Shown piece after piece: positions 19,598-62,628 of a DNA stretch of 64,000 nt. The notes beneath the pieces were generated by a model. It saw only the letters and a list, made by a program, of their open reading frames with translations, was not told where the DNA came from and did no database searches. How positions within the stretch are numbered: position 1 is the stretch's first letter; every line of letters begins with the position of its first letter. Source of the DNA: Crambe crambe (taxonomy: Eukaryota > Porifera > Demospongiae > Poecilosclerida > Crambeidae); NCBI GenBank assembly GCA_963924555.1, contig OZ004587.1:6588075-6652074 (forward strand). Direction: 5' to 3'. Position numbers and translations under genes: made by a program.

Positions 19598-27081
<7,484 letters not shown>

Positions 27082-27300: not shown

Positions 27301-29572
27301 ATGCCAGTGAGTATGGAGCAGTGGAGGGCCAGTGTGGGCCTGAACAATGCTGCACGTTCTCGTGCTTCAGTGAAGCACTGCAGTGATAGTGTCTCCCCCG
27401 ACCACATTCTGGAAGAATTCCTACTCTCACTAATAGGTTAGTACAAGCTGGCTAGGTATTACAAGACATGTAACCATTAACCAATCTTTTCTTTTCTGTT
27501 ATTTTTTATTTTTTTAATCCTCTTCTGGTTGCCAGGCCAGTCCTGGTGGACCTTCAGCCTGTTCTAACTGCCTCATCTTCTCTCTATGTTTTCTTAAACA
27601 TCATCCTGTGCTGTTGCTGTAAATCATATAATAATAATAATAATAATAACTAAGTTTGCCTACAAGAATGAACTAAAATACCAGTAGCTAGCTATTACAG
27701 TAATAATCTATACACATAGTGTATGTGTGCCTGCATTAGGATTACATCACCAACTAGACCCCACCACCCCTGATAGAGCACTGTCTGTCTGTCTGTTTAT
27801 ATGCTCTATTCCAGACATGATACACTAAAGTTTCATAGCTTTTTTGATTGGAAGTCAAGATTGATGTAGCTAGTTAATAGCTATAGGGCCTCTAGTACAT
27901 GCTAGTACTTGATAGACAATCCTTTACAAAATTGACAAGTCCTACCCAATGCATGATTGACTGTACACACTTTTGATATCATCATAATCATGGGTCTCCC
28001 ATTTCTTTCAGATGGTAGCAATTTCTCTACAACTCAAGCCCGTGGAGTTTGCAGTAAACAGAGGATACTGAAAGGACTTGGTGTGTACTTGTTTGTTGCC
28101 TTCTCTATCACCATTATATGCTGTCTACTACACTGTGCTGGGGATGTCGAGACCAACCCTGGTCCAGGAAGTCAGTCAAGTAGTTATGGCTATGCTCTGC
28201 ATGCAATATCAGTAGAAACAATACAATTTCAGTAGTATTTTAATTATGATTCATAGTTGAATTGATTTCGTCTAATTTTGCTGCCATTCAAAATCGTCTG
28301 TGGGAAGCGAGGACCAATTGGTTAATGTTTGGACTCCAACTAAAGCTCCACATTAGCAGCCTGCAAGTTTTACGATCCAAATATAATGACCCAGATGTGT
28401 GCTTCACCGATATGTTGGTGAAGTGGTTGGATGGATGTGGGGGTGAGATCTCATGGAAAGCTGTTGTGTCTGCTCTGATCAAGCCCACCGTGGGATTTAA
28501 GAGCTTAGCTGAGAAAATAGTAATGGAGGAAGAAGTCTTCCTTGATGGTAAGTATGATCTACACTATAAAAAACAACAACAAAAAAAATGCTGTCTACAG
28601 TCCCGGCAACGGGATCGGTTCGTTCAGGCCACCAGTCCTGGCACCGGGATTCTTCACAGATTCAGACTGGTCCCAGCACCAGGACACTTAGAAAATTTTT
28701 CAAAGATTGAAAAAGAAAAAAAGTCCAACGCAGGAATCAAACCCGAGTCCACACATTCAATAGCACGCAGCACTAACCAATGGGCTACAGTGGCAACGCT
28801 GCAAAATGCCCTATGAAAGCGATATTTATACTTCTAACTTCAAACTTTTTGGTTGCCTTAGGGAGCCCTTTGGGCCTGCACTGCAAGCTGGGCGACTAGC
28901 CTTGGAGTAACAACAGTGTGTGAATAGTACGTCCCATACACCTAACGCTCGCTGCCTTGCTCCCTTGCAGGAGCCTTGGAGTCACAACAGTGCGTGAATA
29001 GTATGTCCCATACACCTAACGCTCGCTGCACTCGCTCCCTTGCAGGAGCCATTATAATACATATAGGCCAGAAGCTGGCCTATATGTATTATATATTTGC
29101 CGGGACTGGTGGCCTGAACGGAGATCCCGTTGCCGGGACTGTAGACACAGTGAAAAAAAAATGTGTAAAAACAACCCATTTTAGGTTATCTGAGCTGTAA
29201 ATGTGTAAAAACAACCCATTTTAGGTTATCTGAGTTGTAAATGTGTAAAAGCAACCCATTTTAGGTTATCTGAGTTGTAAATGTGTAAAAGCAACCCATT
29301 TTTAGGTTAGCTATCTGAGTTGCAAACCCATTTTTAGGTTGTCTGAGTTGCAAATTGCAACTCAGATAACCTAAAATGGGTTGTTTTTTTACGATTTTGT
29401 TTTTACAGTGTACTGATAGATAACATAATGCATAATCTTGCTCACAATGTAACCCAGACCCAGTTACCTAACTAGCTGCAGTGATTTCTGCAAGCAATCA
29501 CAATTTTGTCTTGTAACTCTACCCACAGCCCCATTAACAGCAAGGCACACTAGTTTGAGGCCACAAATTATG

Positions 29573-29671
<99 letters not shown>

Positions 29672-32600
29672 GCCCCTCCTATTAAAGTTATAATTTCTGA
29701 GGGCAACCCCTCAAACCCCTCAGTGGAGGAGAAATACCGCCTCTCCTGCACAGTCTCAGGTGCTGAAGATTTCAGTCCTACCATCACATACTGCTGGAGT
29801 CACAATGGAGTAGTGCTGGTTGAGTCCTCAGACAGCACTCTCTCTTTCCCTTCTCTCTCTCTGTCCCATGGTGGTCAATACACTTGCCAAATCAACCTCA
29901 CCTCCCCTTTCCTCAAGGACACCATCACTGCCACTAGCAACACTCACAACATCTTTCTCAAAGGTAAGTATACATATCAACTGCATTTCATTGAAGACGA
30001 GAGATGTTGCAGGTTGTCCTGTGACTCCTTCCTCACATCCAATGGACTCCAGCTCACCTCCATCTACCATGGAAGGTCCCACACCTTCTTTGGAAGAAGT
30101 TTCAAAAGGTATGCCTAATTTTTCTTGATCATATAGAACACGATTGCGAGTGAAGTAAACCACTAGGGGGTCGAATAAGAGGGCACTCAGTGGCATAGGA
30201 ACCATGGAGGCTCCAGGGGCTACAGCCCTTATACCCATGGGAGCTCCTATAGGCTAGAGCCCCCATCAATCACTCACACACAAGTGGTTATCCTTATAGC
30301 TAGCTGGATAAGCGTTATTTAATCACAACATGACACATGCACATGGCCAAGCAGCTAATATATCAAAACAAGTTAATTTTTTCCCCTCCAGTCCAGAATT
30401 GTCACATTTGTAGTACAAAACTCTCGTAAGCAGCAATATTTATTAATAATACTGTGAGGGTAAGTAGATGTGGTTACGCAAATTTTTTTCTGGAGCCCCA
30501 CTCTGGTGCTATTGTAAATATTGATGAGAATTATATTATAATTTCCTCATAATGATGATGGTATTTAATAATTTGACAGAATCTCGAAATAAAATTATTT
30601 TAATAAATTATTTTAATAATGTGTGTGCGTTGCGCATGCGTGCTGTGTACAGCTAGCTATTCTATTTAGCATGGAGTTCTCCAGTTGTGTGAGGGGCCAT
30701 CAAAAAAGTGGACTCCAGTTCTTGAAGAATTAGAGTATACATAGAAGAGAGATTGACGACAGTAGCGATCCTTATGCTGTTCTTAAGACGGTTGGTCACA
30801 TCCTTCGAGCCGCTTGTTCTCTCTTTCTTTACAATGATGGATCTTCAATTTGCTGCGCTATCACAGGTTCAAGGTGCTACTCCTCTGATTTACCCCAGGG
30901 AGGCCTAGCAAGCTTTAAATCCTCAAGGGATAGAGCTACACACATCTTTATCAGGCAGGACTGGATTCAGGACTGGATAATCCGATTCTACTTCTTCGGT
31001 AGAATATACTTCAGTAAGTAGCATGGCAGCTGCACGCAATATGCGCATGCCTCGTACCCAGGCCCGCTTTTTTCGCGGGGGGCGGGGGTAGATTAAACAA
31101 TGTGCGGAGAAATTTACTGAAATATTTACGGAAAAATTAGCGCATGCGCAAACAGTCTGTGTTCACAGTTCAAAGTGTTCACAGATGACTTTGCATGTCC
31201 TGTGTGCGGGCACAAGTACGGCAGGAGCAACCTTCCTGCGGACCACATCACCAAGGTTCACCTCGGCTGCGAACTCAAGCACCTGCTGCACCTTCTCACA
31301 ACTCCTTGCGAGGAAACCTTTGAAAAGGCACTATCACTTAGAACAATATTGCACACAACTCTATAGCAAGTTATTGTATCATGTCACATCATAAGCCTGG
31401 TTATTTCATATTATGTTCTCTCTGTATGTATCCCTTGCGGGCTTTACAATGAAATTTTGAATTTTGAATTGTACCAGGCCAGGCCCTCTCCTTTCTTCGT
31501 GGGAGGGGCCTGGGGACGAGGCTAGTTCCAGACCTTATCCACATCAGTGAAATAAACAGACGCAACAAGAACAGCACTAGCCAAGCTTATGGTTAAAAAT
31601 AAAAGGTAAGTAAGCAGCGACTCTTCTCGTCTAACCAGTTAGTAGCGACACAAACAAATAACTTCTTAGTCTCGCGGGCCAGACCTTTCTGCGGACGGAA
31701 GGGGAGGGGGAAGGGGGAAGGGTCTGGTAACTATTGATAGGTTTTCGTGGACCTCCGGAATGTTATAGTCACATGATAATCAGATAATTACACAAGACCT
31801 AGCGCGCGCTCGCGCTCAGCTCAGAGAGATTGCAATCATGGAGCGGACTGACTACTACAACTATTGAACTGGAGGATGTCCTTCTCAGTTTGTCAAACAC
31901 AGAAACAGAAAATGTTTCATGATCTCTTCTTGCTTTTCACGAAGACTAGAATAGCCTATTTCATTTGTCGCATCTTGTATAGCATAACATTTTTTAATCT
32001 CTTTCTCCTCATGACAGCGTGATCGATAGTTTGCCACGTGAACTTTAGACGGTCCATCTGATAATCTCGTGACAGCAACACCCATTTTTAAAAATCTGAA
32101 ATCTGATTGGTTCCGCCAAGATTCTGATCTGGCGGAGGTCTAGTCACGCGAGCCAGCCGTATTTTTCACGCGCGAAAAGGGGGAGGGGGAAAGGAAGAAA
32201 AATACGTCTGGTCAGACTGGCCAGATTTTTGTGAACTCCGCCAGAATCTTGGCGGAGCCAATCAGATCAAAGTAGTCACGTGATGTTCAATAAATCATGT
32301 GACATGATGACGTTTGCTACTTTTTCTAGCTCGCGCGTGAAAATGAACCGAAGCAGAAGAGAAGAGAAGCCACAGTGCAGTGAAGAGGAGGTAGGCGCAG
32401 CTATGGAGGAAGAAAACCAAAGGTGCATCATAGCCAGTTTTTGCAAGTGGCCGAAGTGATGTCTTCGCTAGCATGCCTACTGGCAGTGGCAAATCACTTT
32501 GTAACTGTATTTTTTGACTAACATGTTATAGTCCATTGCCATAATCATAGCTATATCTACGCACCAAATTCAAATTAGTCATGTGATTTATAATGTGACT

Positions 32601-38600: not shown

Positions 38601-41600
38601 AAGGTCTTGGATATCAGGGATGGTTCAAAAGAGATAGGTCCATTTGTTTGTTAGGCCACGAGTGAAGGCGGCGTAAGCAGCGTGAGGTTGTGTGGTTGCG
38701 AATTGGGATAGCTTTTCCAGTTCACTGCACCATTTAGTAACCTTGTCGATGACAAATTGCCGTATGAAGCCAGGGGGGCCAAGAGCAGAACCCAGATGAG
38801 GTCTTCCTTCTGTGGTAATGTTAACACCTGTGTCACTGAAGGTGGATCTTGCTTCATTACTATGTTGTGGTTTTGTTATAAGCCAAGTCTTTGAAGGATT
38901 GACATGATATCCATATTTGGGGCCAGGTCTTTCCACCAAGAGTACAGATTGGTAATGCTCCCTGAGGCTGAGGCATCATCTGCATACCACGATTGAAGGA
39001 TAGATTTTGGTAGTCTCCTTATGAGGGGGATTGTGGCCAGCCCATACAGCGGCATTGCTAGGGGGTCTCCCTGTGTAGTTCCTTCCTGAGATGGAAGGAC
39101 TACATCACCAGTGAAGAGGTCTGAGTTGGATCGGTAAAAGTTGATGCACATAGTAGCCAAGGAGGGGCATAGTTGTCTGACATTGTGGAGGGCAACTTTT
39201 CTGTTAAGTGAGTTGACGTTTGTTCCATCAACAAGGAGAACAGCCTCTGTATCGTTACTCTCAAATGATGCATGGACCACAGCCTCAACTCCAGCTGGCT
39301 GCCCTGCACATAACTGTAAGGATCCTGCAACATCCTGTATATCAGCACTGGTCACGGATAAGATGGTCTTGGCTATGATGCGGCGAACTGTCTCACATAT
39401 TCCAATTGGCCTTACTCCAGGGTTTTTGTCTAATGCTATCAGACGACAAGCTAAAAGGGTGCTAGGCCGACTGGATCAGCACAAGAGGTAGCAAGACGTC
39501 TGGCCATCAGAGCCAATGCGTGGCATAAGTCATCTGAGGCTTGAAGGAAGTGCCTATCTTTCTCCAGCCCTTGGCATCCATCCCTGAGGGACCGGCAGAC
39601 TACAGAAAGACAGAACAGTCTAGAGCTAGCTGCTGACTCAGCTCTCAAAATTACGATATGTAATGTTTCTTACAATTTTTGTGTAACGGACGTGCCTGAA
39701 AGTATAGCTGAAAGTATAGCAAATCCCCCCGAATTGGGGGGATGGAGCACATGCGCATGCAACTCATACCAGGCCCTTCACTTTTCCATGATCCACCGCC
39801 CCGCGAAAAAAGCGGGTCTAGGTACGAGGCTAGCGTACTATTGTGAACTTAATTAAACTGAACAACTTTTCGACGGCTTTATTTTTGGCGATATGATGCT
39901 TAAACCACCGAAGCATCAAATTAAAATCTTCGTCAATATCTCCTGGTATATCGTCGTACATATGTTCTTCCAGTTCCATGTCTGTCCTTTAATTATAATA
40001 CGGTGACGTCATCGGCTAAAGCTTCACTCACCACAATGCTTTGTATTTCCCTAGTATTGAACTTATAGTGGATTTTTAAAGAGCAAGTGAAGTGTTAACT
40101 ATTATAACTGTTATAGCCTACAATTGACTTGGTTAGGCATTGCCGACCCTTTTATTGGTGGGTGGGGGAAGGGAAAGGGTTTGGTGTCGTTAGCATCAAC
40201 AAACGACTTGTGCTAGCTGAAGGAATTTGCATTACATCATTAAGCTATACAGTGGCACATGATAAAATAATAAAAGTGCGCAAACATTGCGAAAACATGG
40301 TCTATGCAACCGAGATGGCTACTTCAGACTTGTGCCTGGCTTGTGGCAAATCAGCTGTAAAGAAGGACATACTGCAATCTGATTGGGGCGCAACTATTGT
40401 TGCACCAGCACAAGTCGTTGATGCTAACGACACCAGACCCTTTCCCTTCCTCCACCCACCAATAAAAGGAAGGTAAAGGGTCGGCAATGCCAGACTACAA
40501 TTGACCATCATTAATGATAGATAGATTAAAATTTCAACATCACCAGGAGGCTTGCTTCTTGCTGCATGTCTCCCTAACTGCTAATTTGTTTTGTGAGTTG
40601 GATTTGTTCTCTGTGATTTGTTCTCTGTGGAATGTGTAGTAATATTGTTCCACACAATTATTGTTCATGGAGTTTATAATTTATGGTTTGTGTATGTTAG
40701 TCATCAAAACTCTGAAATCTTCCTTTGAACTTCTTCTCCACTCTATAAACATAGTTTACTCTTATTATGACATGGTTTCTCTAATAAGAGTAAACTATGT
40801 TTATAGAGTGGAGAAGAAGTTCAAGGGAAGACTTCAGAGTTTTGATGACCAACATACACAAACCATAAATTTTGCATCATAAACTCCATGAACAATATTG
40901 TGTGGAACATTATTATTACACATTCCACAGAGATTTAATTGCTAACTCTACAACCTGTTATTGCAGATCTTAAAAAAACCATTCAACAGCAAACACAAGA
41001 CCTTGAAGACGAATTTAATGGCATCTCCATTCAGACGTATGATAAAATAAAGGAGAAAGATATTGACGTCGATCGATTCAAAGCTCGCCTCGTGACATTA
41101 CCATTTAAGTACAAAGAGGAACATAAGGAATTTTTTGAGCAAATGTCAAAAGAATTGGATGGTGAGTCCACCATTATTTGCATTTGGCGAAAACTTAGTG
41201 ACTACTGGAACTTTATGAATTATACACTATTGGAAAATTTAATTCATAACATCGGAGACCGAACTCTGAAACAGAATATGAACAGTTATCTGAGTTCATT
41301 GAAATTCTTTAAACGAAACACTCGACTATGTGACTTTGCTGAACATTGTCCAGCAGTCGAAAGCAGACCTAGCGAAGCGGATCTGAAGGAATTTGTACTC
41401 CACCTGAAGTTAGACTGGGAGACATGCACTTTGGAGCAACTAGAAGAGTTGAAAGGTCACATCATCCGCAAGTTCCTCCTCCCCTCCTTTACCCTCATCT
41501 TGAAGAAAGTATCACCTGGCAGTTTGATAGTCACATGGTTGCTACCTGCTCAGATTGCCTCCACTTTAGTGCAGGACCTGGAGAACACTGACAATAAAGG

Positions 41601-44600
41601 ATTCTTCAAGGAACACAAAATCGAATCCATGACCATTGATGGTAAAGAATACAAATATTCAAGTATTCCAAAGTATGCAGCCTTCCTGAAGGACACCTAT
41701 TCCACCATGGAGGGCAAGAATCTCGCTGCTTTCAAACTGGCAAAGATAGCGAAGGAGGAGATTGATCGGAGTGAAATGGACAGCTTCACTAAGAGTACGA
41801 TCAGGGGAGACAAAGATGATGTCATCTACGAGAAATACCCTATGACAGAAGATGAAGTAGCTCTGGCCATGTCTGAAACTAAACGGAAGAAACCACGATT
41901 AGTTCTGATTGAAGGAGCTCCGGGTGTGGGCAAGACCACATTCAGTGAACAATTCTGTTTCAAGTGGTCTCAGGGCCAATGTCTAAATGACCGCACCCTA
42001 CTGGTCCTCCTTCCCTTACGCGACAACAGAGTGAAGTCAGCCAAAAGTATCTCTGACCTCTTCCTCCACCCTCAGCTCCAGGGGGCCATAACACAGGAAG
42101 TGGAGAGCAGCCAAGGAGAGGGTGTAGTCCTGTGGCTGGAAGCCTGGGATGAACTGGAACAAAAAATGAGGGAAGAATCTTCAATATTTCTTGATTTAGT
42201 ACATGGTCGCAAGCTACCCAAAGCTACCATAATCATAACCAGCCGACCATGGGCAACAAAGACAATCGTTAAGAGCACTTCAATCCAAGTGGACCAGCAT
42301 ATCGAACTTGTCACAACTCCTACTTTAGAGTTAGGACGAGTATTGAGAGAAGAGAGGGTTCATCCTGACATCCGTGACAAATTTTTGGACCATGTGAACT
42401 TTTATCCAGCAATGAAGGCAGCCATGTACACTCCTGTGACTGCCAACATAGTGACAGATGTGTTCCAATGGAGCCAAGAAATGGAGTCAACCCCTCCAAC
42501 CACTGTTACCCAACTCTACGCAGCATATACATGCAAATTGCTGATGCAGCACTATAATGCACATGGCAAACAGTCCTGGAAGATTGGATCTCTTGAGGAC
42601 CTCCCTCCAGATGTGCATCAACAGCTGCTGGCCCTAAGCAAACTGGCTTGGGAAGGAATCATGAAGCAACAACTGACTTTCAGCAGTGCTGATATCGGTG
42701 GAGTTACTCTGGGATTGATGGAATCAGTGAAAGAGCTATATCGTGGACAAGATGCCGAGCTCTCCTACCACTTCATCCATCTGATGCTTCAAGAGTTCCT
42801 AGCTGCCTACCACATTACACAGTTGCCTCTCCACACACAACAGCAGCTAATAAGAGAACATGTCAAAGTAGGTCACCTGAGCGTGGTGATGAAATTCTAT
42901 TTCGGTCTCTCTAAGTCTAATACCTTCACTTCAGAAATGGTTCGAGAGCAGATCTCAGATCGTGGAAGTGCAGCTGCCTATCACTGGATGTATGAAGCTG
43001 GTGATACTGAGGCAGTTTCTAATCTGCTTGCATTTGGTCGGTCATTGTATGTGGAATCAACTTATGAATGGAATCCTCTTGACTACTATGTATTTGGTCA
43101 TTGTATTGCACATTCTCGATGCAAGTGGAACTTGAACTTTAGGGCTTCACTCATGGGAAGAGAAGGAATGGAAATGTTCAGCAAAGGAATGATGAACATG
43201 CCAGAGAGAGAAGTACCTTGGGAAGGAGATATAGAAACTGCTGCTTTCAGTTTCAATAATCTTGATTTTGACAGTATTGAACATTTTAAAAATATCCCTC
43301 ATCCCATACTCAAGAAGCTTATTGCACTGGATTTATATGCCAATAAACTCGATAATACTTGTTTGAACAATCTGTCTAAAGCCATACCTTTTCTGACAAG
43401 TTTAAAGGAACTGATCTTGACATTTAATTTCAGCATTGGTAAAGGTGGAGCTGTGAAGCTTATTAAGACTTTATCTCGAAATAAGACTCCACTGAAAAAA
43501 CTACATCTTGATCACACAAAGATTGGTGAAGAAGATTGTGCAAGTCTCACAGACCTCATTGCTAACAGTGAATTGGAGGAGCTGAATATTGGTTTTAATA
43601 GTCTCTCCTCCAACAGTGTAGCTTCCATAATGAAAGATCTCCTACAGAACAGCACCATCATAAAACTTGACATGTGTTACTCACATTTTTCAGAAGACAA
43701 CTGGAAGTCGTTGTCATCCCAACTACAGAGGTCAGAGTGCGTGCTGCAAGATTTGATCATCGCTGGGTGTGGCATTACAAGTGAAGGAGCAGTGCAACTG
43801 GTAGCAGGTCTAGCCACCAATAAATCACTCATCAAACTCGTACTTTGTGAGAACCCATGTGAAGCAGCTTTGGTTGGTGATGCACTTAAAACAAATTCAG
43901 TGTTAAAGGACCTTGATATTGCCAGGTGTAATATCACAAGTGAGGGAGCAGAGTTACTAGCAGATGGTCTAGCTACCAATAAATCACTCACCAATCTAGA
44001 TCTATCTTGGAACCCGATAGGAGACTTTGGAGCAGTGTTACTAGCAGACAGTCTAACTACCAATAAATCACTCACCAATCTAAATTTATCTGGGGACCTG
44101 ATAGGAGACTTTGGAGCAGCTTCCATTGGTGATGCACTTAAAATAAATTCAGTGTTAATGCACCTCGATATAACAAGGTGTGATATCACAAGTGAGGGAG
44201 CAGTGTCACTAGCAGACGGTCTAGCTACCAATAAATCACTCACCAATCTAAATCTATCTGGGAACCCAATAGAACACATTGGAGCAGTGTTAATAGCAGA
44301 CGCTCTAGCTACCAATAAATCACTCACCAATCTAAATCTATCTGGGAACCCGATAGGAGACAATGGAGCGGTTTCCATTGGTGATGCACTCAAAACTAAC
44401 TCGGTGTTAATGGTCATCGATATTAGTGACTGCAAAATAACATCTCAAGGATGCATCCAAATTGCTGAAGGACTATCAAACAATTCCACTCTACAAATAT
44501 TACAGATGTCAGGCAATGAAATTGGAGTGGATGGAGCTAAGGCGATAAGTGCAATGCTGGAGAAGAACACGTCACTACAGGAACTACATCTATGTAGAGA

Positions 44601-44721
44601 TAACTCAATCGAAGGAGTGGATATGATACTATCAAGTCTACAGAGCAACACAAGTTTAACAACACTCTCGTTACCAGAGAGATACGAACGACCAGCAGAC
44701 CCCAGAGTGAGGTGGATGTGA
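27301..44721 (+). CDS. NLR-1: leader-2A-Death-Ig-NACHT-LRR immune receptor
   Basis: Six coding exons with matching phases: 27301-27436, 28012-28170, 28257-28547, 29673-29963, 30013-30108 and 40967-44721 (1575 codons plus stop). Exon 1 encodes a 45-aa hydrophilic start, [20 protein letters not shown]. Exon 2 encodes a basic patch (SKQRILKG), a hydrophobic segment ([17 protein letters not shown]) and the 2A-like GDVETNPGP. Exon 3 is a Death-like fold, exon 4 an Ig-like domain, exon 5 a Pro/Ser linker, and exon 6 the NACHT ATPase plus LRRs. Skipping at Gly-Pro would give a 96-aa leader and a 1479-aa receptor starting with Pro. NLRs of this class are cytosolic sensors that oligomerise through NACHT and signal through Death domains. 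Intron 5 is 10.9 kb and full of mobile DNA. Splicing is predicted from sequence only. Confidence 0.82.
28012..28170 (+). other. 2A-like ribosome-skipping motif of NLR-1
   Basis: The exon encodes ...[15 protein letters not shown]. The motif D-V-E-T-N-P-G|P fits the 2A consensus D(V/I)ExNPGP, in which the ribosome fails to form the Gly-Pro bond and then resumes. The Gly codon is 28161-28163 and the Pro codon begins at 28164. The preceding hydrophobic helix could act as a signal or anchor sequence. Related motifs occur in NLR-2 and NLR-3. Confidence 0.88.
28257..28547 (+). other. Death-like domain exon of NLR-1
   Basis: Encodes about 97 residues with a six-helix Death-type pattern: [16 protein letters not shown], a central [20 protein letters not shown], and [15 protein letters not shown]. 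The spaced Trp residues and the 'ML..W' and 'W..V..AL' patterns are typical of Death domains at the N-terminus of sponge NLRs. The exon in NLR-2 (48450-48743) is similar but diverges in its middle. Confidence 0.75.
28588..29150. mobile_element. Inverted-repeat element in NLR-1 intron 3
   Basis: The left end 'gtctacagtcccggcaacgg' is mirrored by 'cgttgccgggactgtagaca' near 29125-29150, and 'caggccaccagtcc' by 'ggactggtggcctg'. Inside are a tRNA-derived SINE-like segment and two tandem ~73-bp units ('cccatacacctaacgctcgc') at about 28910-29050. NLR-2 lacks the whole block, so it was inserted after the duplication or lost from NLR-2. Confidence 0.75.
28723..28806 (-). ncRNA. tRNA-derived SINE-like segment
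   Basis: On the minus strand an A box TAGCCCATTGG (28777-28787) and a B box GGTTTGATTCC (28733-28743) are spaced as in a tRNA gene. The B box differs from the GGTTCGANTCC consensus at one position. The surrounding arms do not fold into a clean cloverleaf, so a SINE head or decayed tRNA pseudogene is more likely than a functional tRNA. Confidence 0.6.
29155..29412. repeat. 43-bp tandem repeats closing into an inverted arm
   Basis: About four units of 'aaaacaacccattttaggtt' plus 'atctgagttgtaaatgtg' are followed by their reverse complement ('aactcagataacctaaaatg'), so the tract can fold back on itself. It ends with GTTTTTACAGTG, mirroring CACTG-type sequence at its start. Confidence 0.8.
29573..29672. 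repeat. (CT)n tract forming the acceptor of the NLR-1 Ig exon
   Basis: About 98 bp of CT run straight into TCTAG at 29668-29672. In NLR-2 the same acceptor has only about 10 bp of CT followed by 'ccttcatttatag', so the tract expanded in NLR-1 or shrank in NLR-2. Confidence 0.93.
29673..29963 (+). other. Immunoglobulin-like domain exon of NLR-1
   Basis: Encodes a single Ig fold of about 97 residues: strand B Cys in YRLSCTVSG, the strand C Trp in [13 protein letters not shown], and strand F Cys in [13 protein letters not shown]. Spacing fits an I/V-type domain. Exon phases are 1-1, the usual phase of shuffled Ig exons. An Ig domain inside an NLR is unusual, since most Ig domains are extracellular. 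NLR-2 carries the same exon at 48975-49256, three codons shorter. Confidence 0.85.
30183..30280. mobile_element. hAT-like terminus relic shared by both NLR genes
   Basis: 'cactcagtggcataggaacc' followed by 'gctccaggggctacagc' resembles the CAGTGGCGTAGGAA end of hAT elements (compare 35732). The same relic lies at about 49482-49580 in NLR-2, so this insertion predates the NLR duplication. Confidence 0.6.
30734..31021 (+). pseudogene. HIRAN-like coding fragment
   Basis: Open for 96 codons without an ATG. It contains [37 protein letters not shown] and SDLPQGGL, which resembles the HIRAN-type motif (D-P-Y-A-V ... V-G-H ... ) seen in many uncharacterised cnidarian and sponge proteins. Lack of a start codon and its position inside the inserted block point to a gene fragment. 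Confidence 0.4.
31160..31475 (+). mobile_element. Possible LINE 3' fragment with short zinc-finger-like frame
   Basis: A 63-codon frame (31175-31366) has CPVCGHKYG and paired His but not a clean C2H2 finger. It is followed by 'gcgggctttacaatgaaatt' and a TTTTGAA-type short tandem tail, which resembles the 3' end of CR1/L2-like LINEs. Confidence 0.35.
31666..33480. mobile_element. 1.8-kb element with ~85-bp terminal inverted repeats
   Basis: The left terminus 'tagtctcgcgggccagacct' is mirrored at 33455-33480 by 'ggtctggcccgcgagacta'. The inner arms also match, including 'cggacggaaggggaggggg' and its complement and 'gtggacctcc' and its complement. Flanking ATAACTTC/ATAACTTT look like an 8-bp target duplication with one change, suggesting a hAT-like non-autonomous transposon. 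No transposase frame found inside. Confidence 0.75.
33610..33935. repeat. Foldback (long inverted repeat)
   Basis: The arm 33615-33740 (tctctgatgtcattgccagattcc ... tgcaggt) is mirrored at about 33805-33925 (acctgcaaacag ... ggaatctggcatcagagatt). Arms are imperfect, around a spacer of about 60-80 bp. Confidence 0.8.
34217..34750. mobile_element. MITE with 8-bp target duplication GATATCAG
   Basis: The terminus 'ctagtctcgcgggcctaccc' is mirrored by 'gggtcggcccgtaagacta'. Inner arms share 'aagggaaagggtctggtcaaactcgcatg' in inverted form. GATATCAG flanks both sides (34209-34216 and 34751-34758), a clear 8-bp duplication as expected for hAT-type transposition. Confidence 0.85.
34758..35551. mobile_element. 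Second inverted-repeat element abutting the first
   Basis: The left arm 'catagattgtatagactacg' plus 'taaccgggattggaaacgc' is mirrored at 35513-35551. GATATCAG recurs just after the right end (35552-35559). The two elements therefore form a chain of GATATCAG-bounded blocks. No coding frame recognised. Confidence 0.75.
35732..36196 (+). pseudogene. hAT transposase C-terminal relic in a non-autonomous element
   Basis: Encodes [20 protein letters not shown] followed by FSSLHQMKT, the hATC dimerisation signature. A stop then a frame change leads to [15 protein letters not shown], so the gene is broken. Element ends 'actggcgtaggaac' and its imperfect complement 'cttcctacaccgctg' form the terminal inverted repeat. 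A hairpin MITE is nested inside at 36021. Confidence 0.7.
36021..36116. mobile_element. Near-perfect hairpin MITE
   Basis: About 96 bp in which 'tcgtacccaggcccgctttt' and the rest of the arm pair with 'aaaagcgggcctgggcacga' around a short loop (ggtggaaaagcgaagggctccacc). Half copies lie at 31050-31090 and 39768-39832, and a related one at 31474-31530. Confidence 0.85.
36596..37050 (-). pseudogene. Arg-rich repeated frame, Helitron-like protein relic
   Basis: The minus-strand frame reads [20 protein letters not shown], then repeated [18 protein letters not shown] and [18 protein letters not shown] motifs, a stop, and further in-register pieces ([17 protein letters not shown]). Such Arg/Glu/Ser repeats resemble N-terminal regions of Helitron-type helicase proteins in marine invertebrates. 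Broken; function is a guess from composition and repeat pattern. Confidence 0.4.
37192..37393 (-). pseudogene. ARL6-like GTPase exon fragments, one interrupted by a poly(A)-like tract
   Basis: The minus-strand exon 37192-37268 encodes [18 protein letters not shown], containing the G4 motif NKMD, and ends at a GTAAGT donor. It matches the [20 protein letters not shown] region of ARL6 (BBS3). The preceding exon tail KLLEHA, ending at 37333 with a GTATGC donor in the matching phase, is cut off at about 37352 by an A-rich tract (37352-37393). No other ARL6 exon was found, so this is a captured fragment or a gene broken by retroelement insertion. Confidence 0.65.
37394..39660 (-). mobile_element. 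Broken non-LTR retroelement with C-terminal restriction-like endonuclease
   Basis: Minus-strand pieces in order: [19 protein letters not shown], an RT core with [40 protein letters not shown] and the catalytic [12 protein letters not shown], a thumb region, a CxC...H...C zinc-binding motif ([20 protein letters not shown]), and an endonuclease core, [20 protein letters not shown] followed by MDIRVFNP. This order (RT, zinc knuckle, PD-(D/E)XK-type endonuclease) characterises the R2/NeSL-like branch of LINEs. At least four frame changes or stops separate the pieces, so it is dead. An A-rich tract at its 3' side (37352-37393) looks like the poly(A) tail. Confidence 0.8.
39830..39979 (-). CDS. 49-codon acidic orphan frame
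   Basis: Starts [18 protein letters not shown] and continues [20 protein letters not shown] before stopping after FTIVR. A TGACGTCA (CRE-like) palindrome lies about 30 bp upstream of the ATG. I do not recognise it. It sits at the edge of the inserted block, so it may be a stray exon or a chance frame. Confidence 0.25.
   Translation of the reverse strand: MELEEHMYDDIPGDIDEDFNLMLRWFKHHIAKNKAVEKLFSLIKFTIVR
40129..40494. mobile_element. MITE with CTACAATTGAC target duplication
   Basis: Inverted ends 'ggcattgccgaccctt' and 'aagggtcggcaatgcc'; inner arms share 'gtcgttagcatcaac' and 'gttgatgctaacgac'. CTACAATTGAC flanks both sides (40118-40128 and 40495-40505). NLR-2 has the uninterrupted site, so the insertion is specific to NLR-1. 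Confidence 0.82.
40618..40932. repeat. Large palindrome immediately upstream of the NLR-1 NACHT exon
   Basis: The left arm (gtggaatgtgtag ... ctctataaacatagtttactc) is mirrored almost base for base by the right arm (gagtaaactatgtttatagag ... attccacagag), with a loop of about 25 bp near 40767. NLR-2 has only the right arm (about 49800-49960). The palindrome ends 35 bp before the exon 6 acceptor. Confidence 0.88.
40967..44721 (+). other. NACHT-LRR exon of NLR-1
   Basis: A single 3755-nt exon encodes a helical linker ([15 protein letters not shown]), the NACHT P-loop [12 protein letters not shown] (about 41908-41943), the Walker-B-like [11 protein letters not shown], the sensor IIITSRPWA, a helical region, and from about 43300 a series of ~28-residue ribonuclease-inhibitor type LRRs such as [19 protein letters not shown]. 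The exon is 111 residues longer than in NLR-2, nearly all through extra LRRs. It ends PADPRVRWM. Confidence 0.92.
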
Positions 44722-45980: not shown

Positions 45981-45985
45981 CACTA

Positions 45986-46095
45986 TGTCTGTCAGTATGG
46001 AACCTGAACAATTTTTGTGCAGCTTCAATGAAGTGCTGCAGAGTCCCTCTCTCAACCACAGAATTCAGTATTCTCACTGCTATAGTTGAGTACCA
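45986..46095 (+). pseudogene. Decayed first exon of NLR-2
   Basis: 'atgtctgtcagtatgga' and 'cctgaacaat', then 'gcttcaatgaagtgctgcag', align with NLR-1 exon 1. A deletion of roughly 20 bases has removed the GGAGGGCCAG region and shifted the frame, and the donor GT is now TT (AATAG|GT versus TATAG|TT). This exon cannot serve as the NLR-1-type start. Confidence 0.7.
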
Positions 46096-48206: not shown

Positions 48207-48359
48207 ACACTTCCTGTATGACCCAAACCCCTGGAGGTTGCAGTAAACAAAGGATATTGAAAGGACTTGGTGTGTACTTGTTTGTGGCCTTCTCTATCAC
48301 CATTATATGCTGTCTACTACACTGTGCTGGGGACATCGAGACCAACCCTGGTCCAGGAA
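48207..48359 (+). other. 2A-like motif of NLR-2
   Basis: Encodes LLHCAGDIETNPGPG. It differs from NLR-1 by Val to Ile, an allowed change in the D(V/I)ExNPGP consensus. Conservation of the motif during the drift of flanking exon 1 suggests selection. Confidence 0.87.
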
Positions 48360-51300
48360 GTCAGTCAAATAGTTATGGCTATGCTTTGCATGCAATATCA
48401 GTGGAAACAATACAATTTCAGTAATAATTATTTTAATTATGATTCATAGTTGAATTGATTTCGTCCAATTTTGCCGACATTCAAAATCGTCTGTGGGAAG
48501 CAAGGACCAAGTGGTTCACCTTTGGACTCCAGCTACGTCTCTCAATTGACATCCTGCAAGTGTTGGGGGCCAACTATCGTGATGACCAGGATAAGTGCTT
48601 CACTTTCATGTTGGTAGAGTGGTTGAATGGATGTGGGGGTGAGATCTCATGGAAAGCTGTTGTGTCCGCTCTGATCAAGCCCACTGTGGGATTTAAGAGC
48701 TTAGCTGAGAAAATAGTAAAGGAGGAAAAAGTCTTCCTTGATGGTAAGTTAGTATAATCTACAGTACTGATATCTGATGTAGCTAACATAATGGTTTTTC
48801 TATCTGTCTATGACCCAGTTGCTAACTAGCTGCAGTGATTTCTTGTAGAATGCTACCATAACTTTGTCTTGTAGTTCTGGCCACATTAATGGTCATGTAG
48901 CCCCTTAACAGCAAGGCACACTAAACAATGTAGATTAAGGCTATGACCAGACTCTCTCTCTCCTTCATTTATAGCCCCTCCAATCAAAGTGGTGATTACT
49001 GGGGGCAACCCCTCAGTGGAGGAGAAATACTGCCTTTCCTGCACTGTCTCAGGTGCTGAAGATTTCAGTCCTACCATCACATACTGCTGGAGTCATAATG
49101 GAGTAGTGCTGGTTGAGTCCTCAGACAGCACTCTCTCTTTCCCTTCTCTCTCTCTGTCCCATGCTGGTCAGTACACTTGCCAAATCAACCTCACCTCCCC
49201 TTTCCTCAAGAACACCATCACTGCCACTAGCAACACTCACAACATCTTTCTCAAAGGTAAGTATATATATATATCCACTGCATTTCATTGAAGATGAGAG
49301 AAAAAATGAATGTTGCAGGTTGTCCTGTGACTCCTTCCTCACATCCAATGGACTCCAGCTCACCTCCATCTACCATAGAAGGTCCCACACCTCCTTTAGA
49401 AGAAGCTTCAAAAGGTATGCCCAATAGAATAGTACATGATTGCAAGTGAAGCGAACCACTAGGGGGTTGAATAAGAGGTCGCTCAGTGGCATAGGAACCA
49501 TGGGGGCTCCAGGGGCTACAGCACTCATAAAATTATACCCATGGGGGCTCCTATAGGCTGGAACCCCCATAAAATTTAAGGCCGAACTATTGATCAACCA
49601 CGAGTGGTTATAGCTAGCTAGTGGAAAATCGTTATTTACATGCACATGGTCAGCGTATTTCCCTAGTATTGAACACATAGTGGATTAATAAGAGCAAGTT
49701 AAATGTTACAGTTGTTAGCTATAGCCGATTGCAGTATAAAAATTACAACATCATCAGGAGGCTTGCTTCGTGTTGAGTTGGACTTGTTTATAATCAGAGA
49801 ACCATGTAATAATAAGAGTGAACTATGTATTATAGCTAGAGTGAAGACAGTTTTGATGACCAAAATACACAAACCTTCTAAGATCAATTTTTGCATCATC
49901 AACTCCATTAACAATGATACTGTGTGGGACAATGATAATTATTATTACACATTCCACTGAGATTTAATTGCTAACTCTACAACCTGTTATTGCAGATCTT
50001 AAAAAAACCATTCAACAGCAAACACAAGACCTTGAAGACGAATTTAATGACATCTCCATTCAGGCGTATGATAAAATAAAGGAGAAAGATATCGACGTCG
50101 ATCGATTCAAAGCTCGCCTCATGACATTACCATTTAAGTACAAAGAGGAACATAAGGAATTTTTTGAGCAAATGTCAAAAGAATTGGATGGTGAGTCTAC
50201 CATTAATTGCATTTGGCGAAAACTTAGTGAGTACTGGAACTTTATGAACTATACACTATTGGAAAATTTAATTCATAACATCGGAGACCGAACTCTGAAG
50301 CAGAATATGAAGAGTTATCTTAGTTCATTGGAAACTTTTCGACGTAACACTCGACTATGTGACTTTGCTGAACATTGTCCAGCAGTCGAAAGCAGACCTA
50401 GCGAAGCGGATCTGAAGGAATTTGTACTCCACCTGAAGTTAGACTGGGAGACATGCACTTTGGAGCAACTAGAAGAGTTGAAAGGTCACATCATCCGCAA
50501 GTTCCTCCTCCCCTCCTTTGCCCTCATCTTGAAGAAAGTATCACATGGCAGTTTGATAGTCACATGGTTGCTGCCTGCTCAGATCGCCTCCACTTTAGTG
50601 CAGGACCTGGAGAACACTGACAATAAAGGATTCTTCAAGGAACACAAATTCGAATGCATGACCATCAATGGTAAAGAATACAAATATTCGAGTATTCCAA
50701 AGTATGCAGCCTTCCTGAAGGACACCTATTCCACCATGGAGGGCAAGAACCTCACCGCATTCAAACTGGCAAAGATAATGGAGGGAATGAGTTATAGGAG
50801 TGAAATGGACAGCTTCACTAAGAGTACGATCAGGGGAGACAAAGATGATGTCATCTACAATAAATACCCTATGACAGAAGATGAAGTTGCTCAGGCCACG
50901 TGGAAGGAACCACGACTAGTTTTGATCGAAGGAGCTCCGGGTGTGGGCAAGACCACATTCAGTGAACAATTCTGTTTCAAGTGGTCTCAGGGCCAGCGTC
51001 TAAATGACTACACCCTACTGGTCCTCCTTCCCCTACGAGACAACAGAATGAAGTCAGCCAAAAGTATCTCTGACCTCTTCCACCACCCTCAGCTCCAGGG
51101 GGCCATAACACAGGAAGTGGAGAGCAGCCAAGGAGAGGGTGTAGTCCTGTGGCTAGAAGCCTGGGATGAACTGGAACAAAAAATGAGGGAAGAATCTTCA
51201 ATATTTCTTGATTTAGTACATGGTCGCAAGCTACCCAAAGCTACCATAATCATAACCAGCCGACCATGGGCAACAAAGCCAATCGTTGAGAGCACTTCAA

Positions 51301-53417
51301 TCCAATTGGACCAGCATATCAAACTTATCACGACTCCAACTCTAGAGTTAAGACGAGTATTGAGAGAAAAGAGGGTTCATTCTGACATCCATAACAAATT
51401 TTTGGACCATGTGAACTTTTATCCAGTAATGAAAGCAGCCATGCACACTCCTGTGACTGCCAACATAGTGACAGATGTGTTCCAGTGGAGCCAGGAAATG
51501 GAGTCAACCCCCCCAACCACCGTTACCCGACTCTACACAGCTTATACATGCAATCTGCTGATGCAGCACTTTTCAGGCCATAATGCACACGGCATACAGT
51601 CCTGGAAGATTGGATCTCTTGAGGACCTCCCTCCAGATGTGCATCAGCAGCTGCTGGCCCTAAGCAAACTGGCTTGGGAAGGAATCATGAAGCAACAGCT
51701 GACTTTCAGCAGTGGTGATATCGGTGGAGTGACTCTAGGACTGATGGAATCAGTGAAAGAGCTCTATCGTAGACAGGATGCTGAACACTCCTACCACTTC
51801 ATCCATCTGACGCTTCAAGAGTTCCTAGCTGCCTACCACATCACACAGTTGCCTCTCCACACACAACAGCAGCTAATAAGAGAACATGTCAAAGTAGGTC
51901 ACCTGAGCGTGGTGATGAAATTCTATTTCGGTCTCTCTAAGTTTAATACCTTCACTTCAGAAATGGTTCGAGAGCATATCTCAGATGATGAAAGTGCAGC
52001 TGCCTATCACTGGATGTATGAAGCTGGTGATACTGAGGCAGTTTCTAATCTGCTTGCATTTGGTCGGTCATTGCATGTGACATCATCTTATGAATGGAAT
52101 CCTCTTGACTACTATGTTTTGGGTCATTGTATTGCACATTCTCAATGCAAGTGGAGTTTGGACTTTAAGCATTCATTCATGGGAAGAGAGGGAATGGAAA
52201 TGCTCAGCAAAGGGATGATGAACATACCAGAGAGAGAAGCACCTTGGGAAGGAGAAATAAAAGCTTCTGATTTCACTCGTAATGACCTTGATTTTGACAG
52301 TATTGAACATTTTATAAATATCCCTCATCCCATACTTGAGAAGCTTATTTCACTGAAATTTGATTCCAATAAACTCGATAATACTTGTTTGAACAATCTG
52401 TCCAAAGTCATACCTTTTCTGACAAGTTTAAAGGAGCTCATCTTGTCGAGGAATTCCAGCATTGGTGATGGTGGAGCTGTGAAGCTTATTAAGACTTTAT
52501 CTCAATATAAGACTCCACTGAAAAGACTACATCTTTATTCCACAAATATTGGTGAAGAAGATTGTGCAAGTCTCACAGACCTCATTGCTAACAGTGAATT
52601 AGAGGAACTGAATGTTAGATATAATGATCTCTCCTCCAACAGTGTAACTTCCATAATGAAAGGTCTCCTACAGAACACCATCACAAAACTTCGCATGAGA
52701 GACTCATGTTTTTCAGAAGACAACTGGAAGTCATTGTCCTCCCAACTACAGAAGTCAGAGTGTATGCTGCAAGATTTGGACATCGCTGAGTGTGGCATTA
52801 CAAGTGAGGGAGCAGTGCAACTGGCAGCTGGTCTAGCCACCAATAAATCACTCACCAAAGTCACACTTGATGGGAACCCATGTGAAGCAGCTTTGGTTGG
52901 TGATGCACTTAAAACAAACTCAGTGTTAAGGTACCTCGATATTGCCACATGTGACATCAGAAGTGAGGGAGCAGTGTTACTAGCAGACGGTCTAGCTACC
53001 AATAAATCACTCATCAATCTCTTTCTATATGGGAACCCGATAGGAGACATTGGAGCAGCTTCCATTGGTGATGCACTCAAAACTAACTCAGTGTTAATGG
53101 GCATAGATATTAGTGACTGTAAAATAACATCTCAAGGATGCATCCACATTGCTGAAGGACTATCAAACAATTCCACTCTACAGAGATTACTGATGTCAGG
53201 CAATGAAATTGGAGTGGATGGAGCTAAGGCGATAAGTGCAATGCTGGAGAAGAACATGTCGCTACAGAAACTGTATCTAAATGGAGATAACTCAATCGAG
53301 GAAGGAGTGGATGTAATATTATCAAGTCTACAGAGGAACAGCAGTTTAACAACACTCTGGCTATCAACAAGATACAGACGACCAGCAGACCCTAGAGTTG
53401 AGTGGATTCGATTATAA
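48207..53417 (+). CDS. NLR-2: short leader-2A-Death-Ig-NACHT-LRR receptor
   Basis: Exons in phase: 48207-48359, 48450-48743, 48975-49256, 49319-49414 and 49996-53417. An in-frame ATG at 48218 gives 1411 residues: [16 protein letters not shown], the hydrophobic helix [17 protein letters not shown], and 2A-like GDIETNPGP (Gly codon 48350-48352), leaving a 45-aa leader and a 1366-aa receptor beginning with Pro. Domain order equals NLR-1. The P-loop GAPGVGKTT lies at 50931-50957; Walker B WLEAWDEL and ITSRPWA are intact. Fewer LRRs than NLR-1. No stop or frameshift occurs in 4.2 kb of coding sequence although exon 1 has decayed, so the ORF appears maintained. Whether translation starts at 48218 or at an unseen upstream exon is unknown. 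Confidence 0.78.
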
Positions 53418-53426
53418 GGTGAGTTA

Positions 53427-57400: not shown

Positions 57401-57715
57401 TAAGGGAAAAAGCATTTCGTGAAATGAAAAAAAGATGTAGGGATGACCACTGCTCAAAAAAGTAAGGAAACAAGAAGGATGGAAATGGGATCAATCTTTG
57501 TTCTGTATATCCAGCCAACAATCCCTACATATACGTCAGGTAACTTCAGATTATAGTGTAGTAATGTGTGTATATGTAGGGATTGTTGGGTGGATATACA
57601 GAACAAAGATTGATCCCATTTCCATCCTTCTTGTTTCCTTACTTTTTTGAGCAGTGGTCATCCCTACATCTTTTTTTCATTTCACGAAATGCTTTTTCCC
57701 TTACTTGTATAATAT
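54414..57715. repeat. Four ~820-bp units each containing a ~330-bp foldback
   Basis: Each unit has a unique-type part (from 'gacaaccatatctctcgaac', near 54440, 55267, 56093 and 56905) and a foldback part (54900-55235, 55760-56050, 56578-56868, 57385-57708) whose arms run from 'acaagtaagggaaaaagc' to its complement. Units 2 and 3 are nearly identical, as are units 1 and 4. All open frames here read through the palindromes. A related foldback lies at 9700-9880. Confidence 0.93.
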
Positions 57716-58850
57716 TATGTCCGTAGTGAGAATCCATGAGTGTGTGATATGTCATGGGGGAATTAATATTTTGTAAAGCTTAGTTCAAAGGAACCTTTCT
57801 CATGTATTCTACACTCAACAGTAATAAGCCTGGGTTCAAGGCTACAGTATTAAGCAGATTCTACCAAGTGTACTCTTACCTGTACTACAGTATACATGTG
57901 GCCTTACCTACTGTTATTTCATTATCATGTGTTACAGGTCCTGGAATTGCAACTCAACTACGTCACTAATTGCACATGAACTCCATTGGCTAAGACAAGC
58001 AGAAACAAAGCAAGGAAAATTAACCAATTGGCTTTACCACTACCCCATATTATCACAACTTAACATACACTTCCACCTTACACTAATTTATCACCTAAAT
58101 GGATTTTTTTTGTGTGTAGAAAATATTTTTTGTCACTAGAGTTCTAGTTCTTCAGATTCAGCCAGCCATGTCTATTGGTCTCCATGATAGGTAGGCATGG
58201 CTGGACTCCAACTATATTATCATAGTACTCCCACACAGCAACAGATTATTAAAGTTCGATCTTTTGTTGCAAGGAAAACTGAAAAGCTTGGTTTGCCATG
58301 CCATGTTTCTGTGTTGAGTGAATCTGAACAGTTATCTGAGCTAGCTTAGCCTATAGAAAGAGAGAACTTAATCTATTTCACTGGATGTTATAGCAAGAAG
58401 TTAACAACTTACAATAATTTTCATGGGATGAAAAAAAATTCTTTGGCTATGAGAACAAGGACACCGAAGAAAGGAATTCTAGTTTTATATTGCCTACAAC
58501 CTTTGACCTGCCATCAATGCTCTCATTTTTATAAACCACAAAAATTATACCTATGAAAAATTTCAGCACCAGTTATTAGACTTATGAAGTCAAACATCTT
58601 TATTTTAACTATAATTTTTTTTACAAGAATGATTAAAAATAATAATTATAAAGTTACTAAAAGTTCATAATCAAACCCAAAAAATTATGTACAGTAATAA
58701 TTTAAAATATGATAATCTTCATTAGCATAATTATAACTTACAACTATCATGTATAGCTAAATAAAACTAAATCTTACGGCTATTTATAGTTACATGGTGT
58801 TCTTAATATAGTAACAATTACAAGTAAAGTATCACTAGTACTCATATAGT
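57716..58850. other. Displaced 3' flank of NLR-2 and intergenic AT-rich DNA
   Basis: 'tccatgagtgtgtgatatgt' and 'aattaatattttgtaaagct' match the sequence directly after the NLR-1 stop (44735-44810), and 'ggaattgcaactcaactacg' matches 45240. The array therefore split the original 3' flank. From about 58010 to 58850 the sequence is AT-rich with no exon recognised. Confidence 0.8.
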
Positions 58851-58853
58851 TAA

Positions 58854-61665: not shown

Positions 61666-61673
61666 ATGTAGAT

Positions 61674-61998
61674 CAACAAACTTGCTTGGTTTTGTAAATT
61701 AGAAAGAGTCCAGTACATGTACTGATAGAAGCTATTAACTAGCTAACTAAATCGGAGCTAGCTAGCTTAACCCATCGAGCAAAATCTTTCAGCGGAATCT
61801 TTCCGAGAAAGAGAGAGGTAGCGTATTGTCACAGGTGAGGTGGGACATCATTTTAGCCTAGATAAAAAAAGTTGACAGTGGCTTCAACTTCCCCATGAGA
61901 TTTAGTGTGGTGTTTTGATGTGGGAAGAAAAGATGCCAGCCACTGAAGAGGTGAATTCACCATGGCCTTGTTTTCTTGCACAGATTCTGTCAGTAGTC
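61674..61998. promoter_or_regulatory. Interval between DUF6589 gene and NLR-3 start
   Basis: About 330 bp between divergent genes. AGCTAGCT-rich patches lie at 61735-61770. The frame of NLR-3 exon 1 is open upstream to an ATG at 61915 through a TTGCACAG|ATTCTG acceptor-like site, so a 5' leader intron ending at about 61980 is possible. Confidence 0.35.
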
Positions 61999-62628
61999 AT
62001 GCCGGTCAGTATGGAGCAGTGGAGGGCCAGTGTTGGCCTGAATAATGCTTCCCGTTCTCGTGCTTTGATCACCATCTCCCCAAACCACATTCTAGAAAAG
62101 ATCCTACTCTCACAAATAGGTTGGTACAGTCTCTTTTTGTCTGATGTGAGCAGCTAGTTTATCCATACAGTCTATACCTTTATAAAAGTATGAATGCATG
62201 AATCATGGTTGGAAAGATTATATCAAACATCAGAAAACTTAAAATTGAACAATATCTAGATAATGCATACAAGTGAAGCTATAGTGAGCTACCTGATTAC
62301 TTATGATATTCATAGTAGGTTCAATAACTTAATGCTTCCACTGATGTATCTATAAGGGTGTTATGTAACTTATTATTTTGTCTACTTTCTGGGTTAAGAT
62401 GAAAAATTTTGATCTTTGTTTTATTATGTACTATAATTTTGCTTGTTTGCTGCCTTTTATATCATTTATTTATTTCTTCTCCCCCAGGTGGTTCAGCTAG
62501 TAAAGGCTGTAGTAAACAAAGGATAATGAAAGGATTGGGATTGTTGGTGTTTGTGGCCTTCTCTGTCAGTATTGTGGCCTGTATACTTCATTGTTCAGGA
62601 GACATAGAAGTCAACCCTGGTCCGGAGT
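61999..62628 (+). CDS. NLR-3 (partial): first two exons with 2A-like motif
   Basis: Exon 1 (61999-62119) encodes [20 protein letters not shown] and ends in the same phase as NLR-1 exon 1. Exon 2 (62488-62628) encodes CSKQRIMKGLGLLVFVAFSV, a hydrophobic helix, and GDIEVNPGPE with a GTAAGT donor. The Gly codon is 62619-62621, giving an 85-aa leader. Exon 1 identity to NLR-1 is high, while exon 2 is more diverged. No Death, Ig or NACHT exon was found before 64000; the next exons probably lie beyond the window, past an inserted element. Confidence 0.75.

Follow-up and report, generated by a model that had tools for sequence, protein, structure and literature searches.

Do the NLR genes of the sponge Crambe crambe encode one protein each or two, a leader and a receptor that part during translation? 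The question is raised by a stretch of 64,000 nucleotides (contig OZ004587.1, positions 6,588,075 to 6,652,074 of the forward strand; G000:C10:6588075-6652074 of the 143.1-Mb genome), here called the window, in which the 2A-like ribosome-skipping motif DxExNPGP is found in frame at three sites on the + strand (window positions 28143, 48332, and 62601), each belonging to a separate gene. Our answer, to which we assign a probability of about 0.73, is that these genes begin with an exchangeable leader-2A cassette in splice phase 1 that would be released during translation, the receptor staying in the cytosol. The exact 2A cores, the [ASC]G-ending hexapeptide before them, the phase-1 splicing around them, and the selection acting on leader codons all point to a 2A-type site lying between the NLR and a conserved leader, as an earlier sequence-only reading of this DNA had proposed.

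A chance origin of the motif was ruled out by shuffling and by its count in the genome. The 23-base pattern for DxExNPGP had no match in any of 100 shuffles (the 11-base NPGP pattern alone is weaker, with three matches also in 1 of 100), and the pattern GAYNNNGARNNNAAYCCNGGNCC was found 210 times in the genome against once when reversed. All three cores of the window agree with (D/G/C/N)(V/I)ExNPGP, and D(V/I)E was read, counting by eye, at 207 of the 210 genome sites, the remaining three having DME (C5:9085034), DEEE (C14), and DEEI (C18). Two isolated sites outside the D(V/I)E rule, DEEENPGP at C14:6590077 and DEEINPGP at C18:6412595, are perhaps chance matches, as the reversed control also yields one. 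The sites are spread over 16 contigs in 48 groups (gaps of <250 kb), with 147 of them within 11 groups of at least five. Where the sequence-only reading saw a cluster of three genes, the cluster itself was confirmed, but its extent had been underestimated, given the 210 sites, the 12 clusters among the leaders read, and the several types of receptor. One array, at C8:604279-1089206 on the - strand, contains 15 strict 2A sites in regular same-strand order with a spacing of 21 to 51 kb, and its leader (read in locus L063) has 95-plus residues with a cysteine-rich CSCTMCTNH stretch and two hydrophobic segments. The 2A as a universal NLR feature was rejected because of its low share at the NACHT and Death places scored: a site was found up to 20 kb upstream from 6 of 103 NACHT places (the best 103 of 232 candidates) and within 5 kb of 4 of 150 Pfam Death places (the best 150 of 965), these being lists of the best-scoring candidates and no measure of the share among all receptor genes.

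Gene models for the window were predicted from protein homology, splice signals, and comparison of paralogs, and all their internal introns are in phase 1. Gene 1 is complete, with the start codon of its first exon at 27301 and 6 exons encoding 1,575 amino acids, and its NACHT-LRR exon lies 10.9 kb past the preceding exon. Gene 2 is also complete, with 5 exons (48218-48359 and then the four later exons listed below) and 1,411 amino acids; its start, ATG 48218 within the 2A exon, is less certain because no counterpart of the first leader exon could be matched upstream. An alternative donor in gene 2, with a 29-base intron, was rejected, as it would run into a stop codon. Gene 3 begins at 61999, its last exon inside the window is the 2A exon (final base, 62628), and it continues into the adjoining 4.4 kb (L077), where its Death and Ig exons were modeled and are followed by a NACHT frame identified through its near identity with those of genes 1 and 2. 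The 2A is in the coding frame on both sides in the two complete predicted models. These models bear out the sequence-only reading in that three neighboring genes place D(V/I)E(T/V)NPGP in a separate exon right after a hydrophobic helix, in frame with a downstream NLR that is complete in two of them. The features are as follows.

27301..27436, + strand: gene 1 exon 0, leader N-terminus, phase-1 donor (homology and model)
28012..28170, + strand: gene 1 exon 1, hydrophobic helix and 2A, phase 1 on both sides (model)
28143..28166, + strand: gene 1 2A core DVETNPGP (pattern match)
28257..28547, + strand: gene 1 exon 2, Death-type domain (tblastn to the gene 2 exon; family profile and fold; no Pfam match)
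29673..29963, + strand: gene 1 exon 3, Ig domain (Ig_2, E 1.5e-8)
30013..30108, + strand: gene 1 exon 4, linker (homology and model)
40967..44721, + strand: gene 1 exon 5, NACHT-LRR and stop codon (NACHT E 3.3e-13; LRR_6 E 6.7e-34)
48207..48359, + strand: gene 2 helix-2A exon, acceptor at 48207, in-frame ATG at 48218 (model)
48332..48355, + strand: gene 2 2A core DIETNPGP (pattern match)
48450..48743, + strand: gene 2 Death-type exon (AlphaFold2 model; PDB fold matches to Death domains; no Pfam match)
48975..49256, + strand: gene 2 Ig exon, homologous to the gene 1 Ig exon
49319..49414, + strand: gene 2 linker exon (homology and model)
49996..53417, + strand: gene 2 NACHT-LRR exon and stop codon (NACHT E 6.9e-13; LRR_6 E 4.1e-19)
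61999..62119, + strand: gene 3 exon 0, leader N-terminus (homology and model)
62488..62628, + strand: gene 3 exon 1, helix and 2A (model)
62601..62624, + strand: gene 3 2A core DIEVNPGP (pattern match)

In genes 1 and 2, the receptor half consists of a Death-type domain, an Ig domain, a linker, a NACHT domain, and C-terminal LRRs, in the order Death-Ig-NACHT-LRR that had been read from the sequence alone, with Pfam matches for NACHT and LRR in both genes and for Ig in gene 1. The Death-type exon had no match to Pfam Death in either gene, and its assignment was made by family profile and fold. A profile of 31 related exons matches the Death domains of THOC1 (best E value of 3.7e-7), FADD, RIPK1, and PIDD, and 15 of the 31 match Pfam Death individually at an E value of ≤0.1. 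For the gene 2 exon, the PDB structures ranked highest against the AlphaFold2 model (predicted local distance difference test [pLDDT] of 95.1) are Death domains (2of5_H at a probability of 1.00 and a template modeling score of 0.66), with weak E values (best, 0.013). By this profile and the modeled fold, the predicted receptors of genes 1 and 2 have a Death-fold domain at their N-terminus.

The leaders of the window genes are 96 (gene 1) and 85 (gene 3) amino acids long, with an N-terminus that comes from a separate exon, and 45 in gene 2 if translation starts at ATG 48218. Their helices reach a best 19-residue Kyte-Doolittle mean (KD19) of 2.42, 2.42, and 2.65 in genes 1, 2, and 3 and end 11 residues before the Gly of NPG, while the maximum in the receptor halves is 1.44 (that of gene 3 being partial). 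To compare leaders across the genome, 73 site records were read (L029 and L044 being one site), and 40-residue leader ends were clustered ungapped at 40% identity outside the core, which gave 49 distinct ends in 12 clusters. In all 49, [ASC]G directly precedes the core, and the hexapeptide is L-rich in nearly all of them (e.g., LLILAG, LLHCAG, and LLLLSG), the weakest being SIALSG in L070.

The mechanism that we propose is one in which each gene opens with a phase-1 cassette made of an optional hydrophilic N-terminal exon and a symmetric helix-2A exon, which would be joined by splicing to the receptor body, where the Death-type domain comes first in most loci read. The ribosome would halt at Asn-Pro-Gly, free the leader, and restart at Pro, so that a single mRNA would give a leader (45 to 96 amino acids in the window genes) and a receptor with an N-terminal Pro. 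The ribosome exit tunnel holds some 30 to 40 residues. With only 11 residues between the end of the helix and the release point in genes 1 and 3, the helix would still be in the tunnel when the leader is released, and the freed leader would probably insert into a membrane afterwards, in the manner of tail-anchored proteins, with the receptor remaining cytosolic. Of the two fates, membrane-directed or secreted, offered for the leader by the sequence-only reading, membrane insertion is the likelier one and secretion the less likely, with the helix of genes 1 and 3 near the C-terminus of the leader. If skipping failed, the emerging helix would act as a type II signal anchor, and the secretory pathway would receive a small fraction of the receptor. 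The sequence itself shows the motif, its frame, the splice phase, the selection, and the copy number; skipping, the fates of the two products, and their ratio are inferred. Since several leader families are only weakly hydrophobic, the split would be the shared role and membrane targeting an extra one in some leaders.

A larger role for read-through is the alternative that survives best, although we find it unlikely. It would be large and regulated, and the receptor would be found both in the cytosol and in the endoplasmic reticulum or at the cell surface, a functional dual targeting like the one proposed for the 2A of sea urchin NLRs. There, according to the data given by Roulston et al. (PMC4981915), about 15% of a reporter appeared in the medium with the wild-type sequence and 44% with an inactive mutant. 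The receptors of the window also have an Ig domain, and a sea cucumber Ig-NACHT protein is reported at the cell membrane (PMC8699970), while a paper on sponge NLRs includes models with transmembrane segments (PMC12909245). However, the canonical cores and hexapeptides described above predict efficient skipping, and several leader families do not have a helix of membrane length.

A motif-blind test was made by searching the genome with leader sequence alone. A 95-residue C5/C8-type leader matched at 69 places, all free of internal stops, and the strict motif follows in 67 of them. The 29-residue window-type leader gave 28 matches, of which 2 have an internal stop and 25 are followed by the motif, making 92 of 97 leader homologs with the strict motif overall. 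The first leader exon has 34 matches in the genome, 27 of them with a 2A site within 6 kb downstream. Distinct substitutions in four leader families showed a synonymous excess (13/11, 6/1, 40.7/48.3, and 7/1 synonymous versus nonsynonymous, with 22 to 27% synonymous expected; P values of 0.0011, 0.00059, 1.1e-6, and 0.00057), and judging by their codons, these four families are under purifying selection. Pairwise ratios of nonsynonymous to synonymous divergence (dN/dS) were 0.24, 0.27, and 0.025 in three leader families, and two copies of the C9-type leader differed by no amino acid change. A dead exon or relic was rejected because the motif is kept in 92 of 97 homologs, all 69 C5/C8-type frames are free of stops, and the leader is under selection. 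From these comparisons the leaders look functional, and the suggestion of the sequence-only reading that the conserved leader may itself have a function gains weight from the synonymous excess.

The best-scoring donor after NPGP is in phase 1 at 66 of 68 distinct sites (one is in phase 0 and one site has none), and the best acceptor of the Death-like exon is in phase 1 in 43 of the 45 such exons in the loci read, which include L025 and L027, both without a strict 2A. In the two exceptions, L020 and L021, the script chose an AG upstream from the AG homologous to that of the other copies. On its upstream side, too, the window-type 2A exon has phase 1, and with phase 1 at both edges it is symmetric and could in principle be moved or skipped without a frameshift. 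In L015, L016, L018, and L019, the Death subtype found in gene 3 comes after a window-type leader, with the short spacing unchanged; such combinations are a direct sign of module exchange between leaders and Death subtypes. Two other loci, L031 and L033 (C1:3.55 and 3.71 Mb), have GC where their sister copies use GT, and their introns are possibly of the GC-AG kind.

This symmetry leaves room for a switch by alternative splicing, in which the helix-2A cassette exon would be taken in or left out and the gene would give either the split product or a receptor with an exon-0 extension. The introns flanking the exon are both in phase 1, so skipping would be neutral for the frame, but exclusion as the main state should not leave the motif in 92 of 97 homologs or the leader codons under selection, and we regard such a switch as improbable. 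The conservation of the 2A exon relative to its neighbors brings no decision on it. In an alignment of 15 of the 23 window-type copies, the identity was 97.5% in the 2A exon, 74.7% in the preceding 100 bases, 87.6% in the next intron, and 85.0% at the start of the Death exon, and after removal of two copies with another Death subtype (n = 13), the values were 97.8, 77.7, 94.0, and 95.9%, respectively. That the 2A exon is the best-conserved part of the gene was dropped as a claim, since in the 13 copies of the same subtype its 97.8% stands beside 95.9% at the start of the Death exon.

By profile search (with 13 seeds from the window, L077, and the loci searched), 47 of the 73 site records have a Death-like frame after the 2A; this number includes L024, the record of gene 3, with a weak match, the true Death exon being in L077. 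Among the 26 records without such a frame, 22 had only about 1.5 kb of flank. Farther downstream on the same strand, single loci have NACHT (L071 and L074), NB-ARC with TPR (L075), ankyrin repeats (L064, L066, and L067), or Ig (L031), and from their order and strand, these frames would belong to the same genes as the 2A leader. Pfam gave no match for 4 of the 10 downstream frames tested (L030, L040, L062, and one of L066), and the profile search found no Death-like frame in L064 or L031, nor in the flanks read of the C5 "KT"-type leaders. Four sites at C5:9.0 Mb have a Pfam Death match 132 to 136 bases on. In L057 (C5:6.04 Mb), one 2A leader is followed by two consecutive Death-like frames.

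A non-LTR retrotransposon could have donated a 2A start region that is now without function in the receptor genes, as 2A motifs are known in such elements (cited in PMC4981915), but this origin as a mere relic is very improbable. It would not account for 147 of 210 sites in 11 arrays of at least five, for the Death-like frame after 47 of 73 records, or for leaders under selection, and the window genes code for receptor domains after the 2A. In genes 1 and 2, what follows is Death-Ig-NACHT-LRR rather than an in-frame reverse transcriptase or endonuclease. Just as remote is a reading in which translation begins in the Death exon and the leader is no more than a 5' untranslated stretch or an upstream frame. 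In its favor, no start codon was located for several leader families; against it, the codons are under purifying selection, 69 of 69 leader frames are free of stops, and the frame is kept across introns.

Several observations weigh against the self-removing leader cassette. The first leader exon has no match upstream of gene 2, the strict motif is absent from 5 of the 97 leader homologs, and L031 and L033 have poor donors among the 66 in phase 1. Position p15 is mostly T, L, or V and is S in only 1 of the 49 leader ends, unlike the preference described by Li et al. (PMC12846837). Hydrophobicity is weak in some leader families (KD19 of 0.81 in the C5/C8 type and 0.49 in L070), so membrane insertion is not valid for every one of them. 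Two more families gave a dN/dS of about 0.58, in comparisons that were ungapped and partly misaligned, and the variable columns of the window-type 2A exon are distributed as 8, 2, and 7 over codon positions 1, 2, and 3, so that position 3 is not the highest. Gene conversion in the tandem arrays may contribute to the similarity of the copies and inflate it. Finally, the symmetric 2A exon could be skipped with the frame kept.

With these points included, the self-removing leader cassette remains the reading that we prefer, and a more general version of it can be put forward tentatively. Because the leader removes itself co-translationally, a new 5' exon and its promoter could be attached to any receptor body in phase 1 while leaving the Death domain unextended. 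The 2A leader might be a general adaptor for exon shuffling, used about two hundred times in one animal genome over several receptor classes, and in part of the family the skip would set the fate of the helix, as a tail anchor of the separate leader after skipping or as a signal anchor for the whole receptor after read-through.

Other features of the window lie in or around these genes. Broken frames resembling reverse transcriptase were seen by eye on the - strand at 37639-39475, in the 10.9-kb intron of gene 1; they had no Pfam match, and the one compared to PHROGs had none there either. Long (CT)n simple repeats are found at 23983-24474 and just before 29673, where the repeat runs up to the acceptor site of gene 1 exon 3 (Ig). 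A DUF6589 frame (E value of 1e-23) lies between genes 2 and 3 on the - strand (58857-59660), and a PA domain frame (E value of 1.7e-8) lies at 6337-6804 on the + strand.

In 2A elements, the ribosome stops at NPG, releases the peptide, and continues at the proline (PMC4981915; PMC12846837). The closest known system is that of the sea urchin. About 35% of its NLR proteins (85 of 241) have 2A-like sequences according to Roulston et al. 2016 (PMC4981915), who elsewhere in the paper give a 26-amino-acid element in 14 of 87 NCBI entries; one from Strongylocentrotus purpuratus skips in vitro and in cells and also has signal activity. This SpNLR2A and the leaders described here share a 2A core N-terminal of NLRs, a signal-sequence character (here predicted from hydrophobicity), and a large family in one marine invertebrate. 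However, SpNLR2A is described as a 26-amino-acid element at the extreme N-terminus, whereas in the window leaders, 45 to 96 residues long, the helix is internal and genes 1 and 3 have a further exon, the 2A ending at residue 96 in gene 1, 85 in gene 3, and 45 in gene 2 (with the start at 48218). Beyond SpNLR2A as described, Crambe has 12 leader clusters, a symmetric phase-1 exon, and single loci with NB-ARC, ankyrin, or Ig downstream. With the StopGo/2A elements of RNA viruses, the sponge sites share the D(V/I)ExNPGP core and the [ASC]G-ending hexapeptide with p12 = D, differing in being cellular and spliced. In the structural survey of Li et al. 2026 (PMC12846837), two L-rich upstream motifs, 2 and 6, have (A/S/C)G as their last residues ahead of p12 and are associated with D at p12 and S at p15; for motifs 1, 3, 4, and 6, almost every mutation of a characteristic residue left hardly any activity. 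The same paper cites the sea urchin case and otherwise treats cellular StopGo as rare, and it also cites a scan of cellular proteomes by Rao et al. 2025 (Cell Reports 115822). The non-LTR retrotransposons with 2A, as cited in PMC4981915, have in common with the window a 2A motif in a cellular genome, while the window genes are multiexon receptor genes that do not encode reverse transcriptase.

Among sponges, the NLRD genes of Dysidea avara (PMC12909245) are similar in the order Death, NACHT, and LRR and in their clustered copies, and the window genes have in addition the Ig exon and the 2A leader; neither "NPGP" nor "2A-like" occurs in the main text of that paper. The sea cucumber AjNLRC4 (PMC8699970) also combines Ig and NACHT in one protein but, as described, has no LRR and spans the membrane with two segments. 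In the best-ranked open-access papers, by title and start of the abstract, there was no description of a leader-2A-receptor architecture in sponges. Such leaders would suggest another reading of "membrane-bound" NLR models in sponges, whose annotated N-terminal transmembrane segment may be a leader that parts from the receptor during translation. With so many natural variants of the leader, the link between 2A sequence, skipping efficiency, and localization could be tested directly. The principle is already known from sea urchin NLRs, while the scale, variety, and exon design seen in Crambe are new relative to the literature compared, in which a genome with 210 sites, and 147 of these in arrays, would rank with the heaviest cellular uses of StopGo described.

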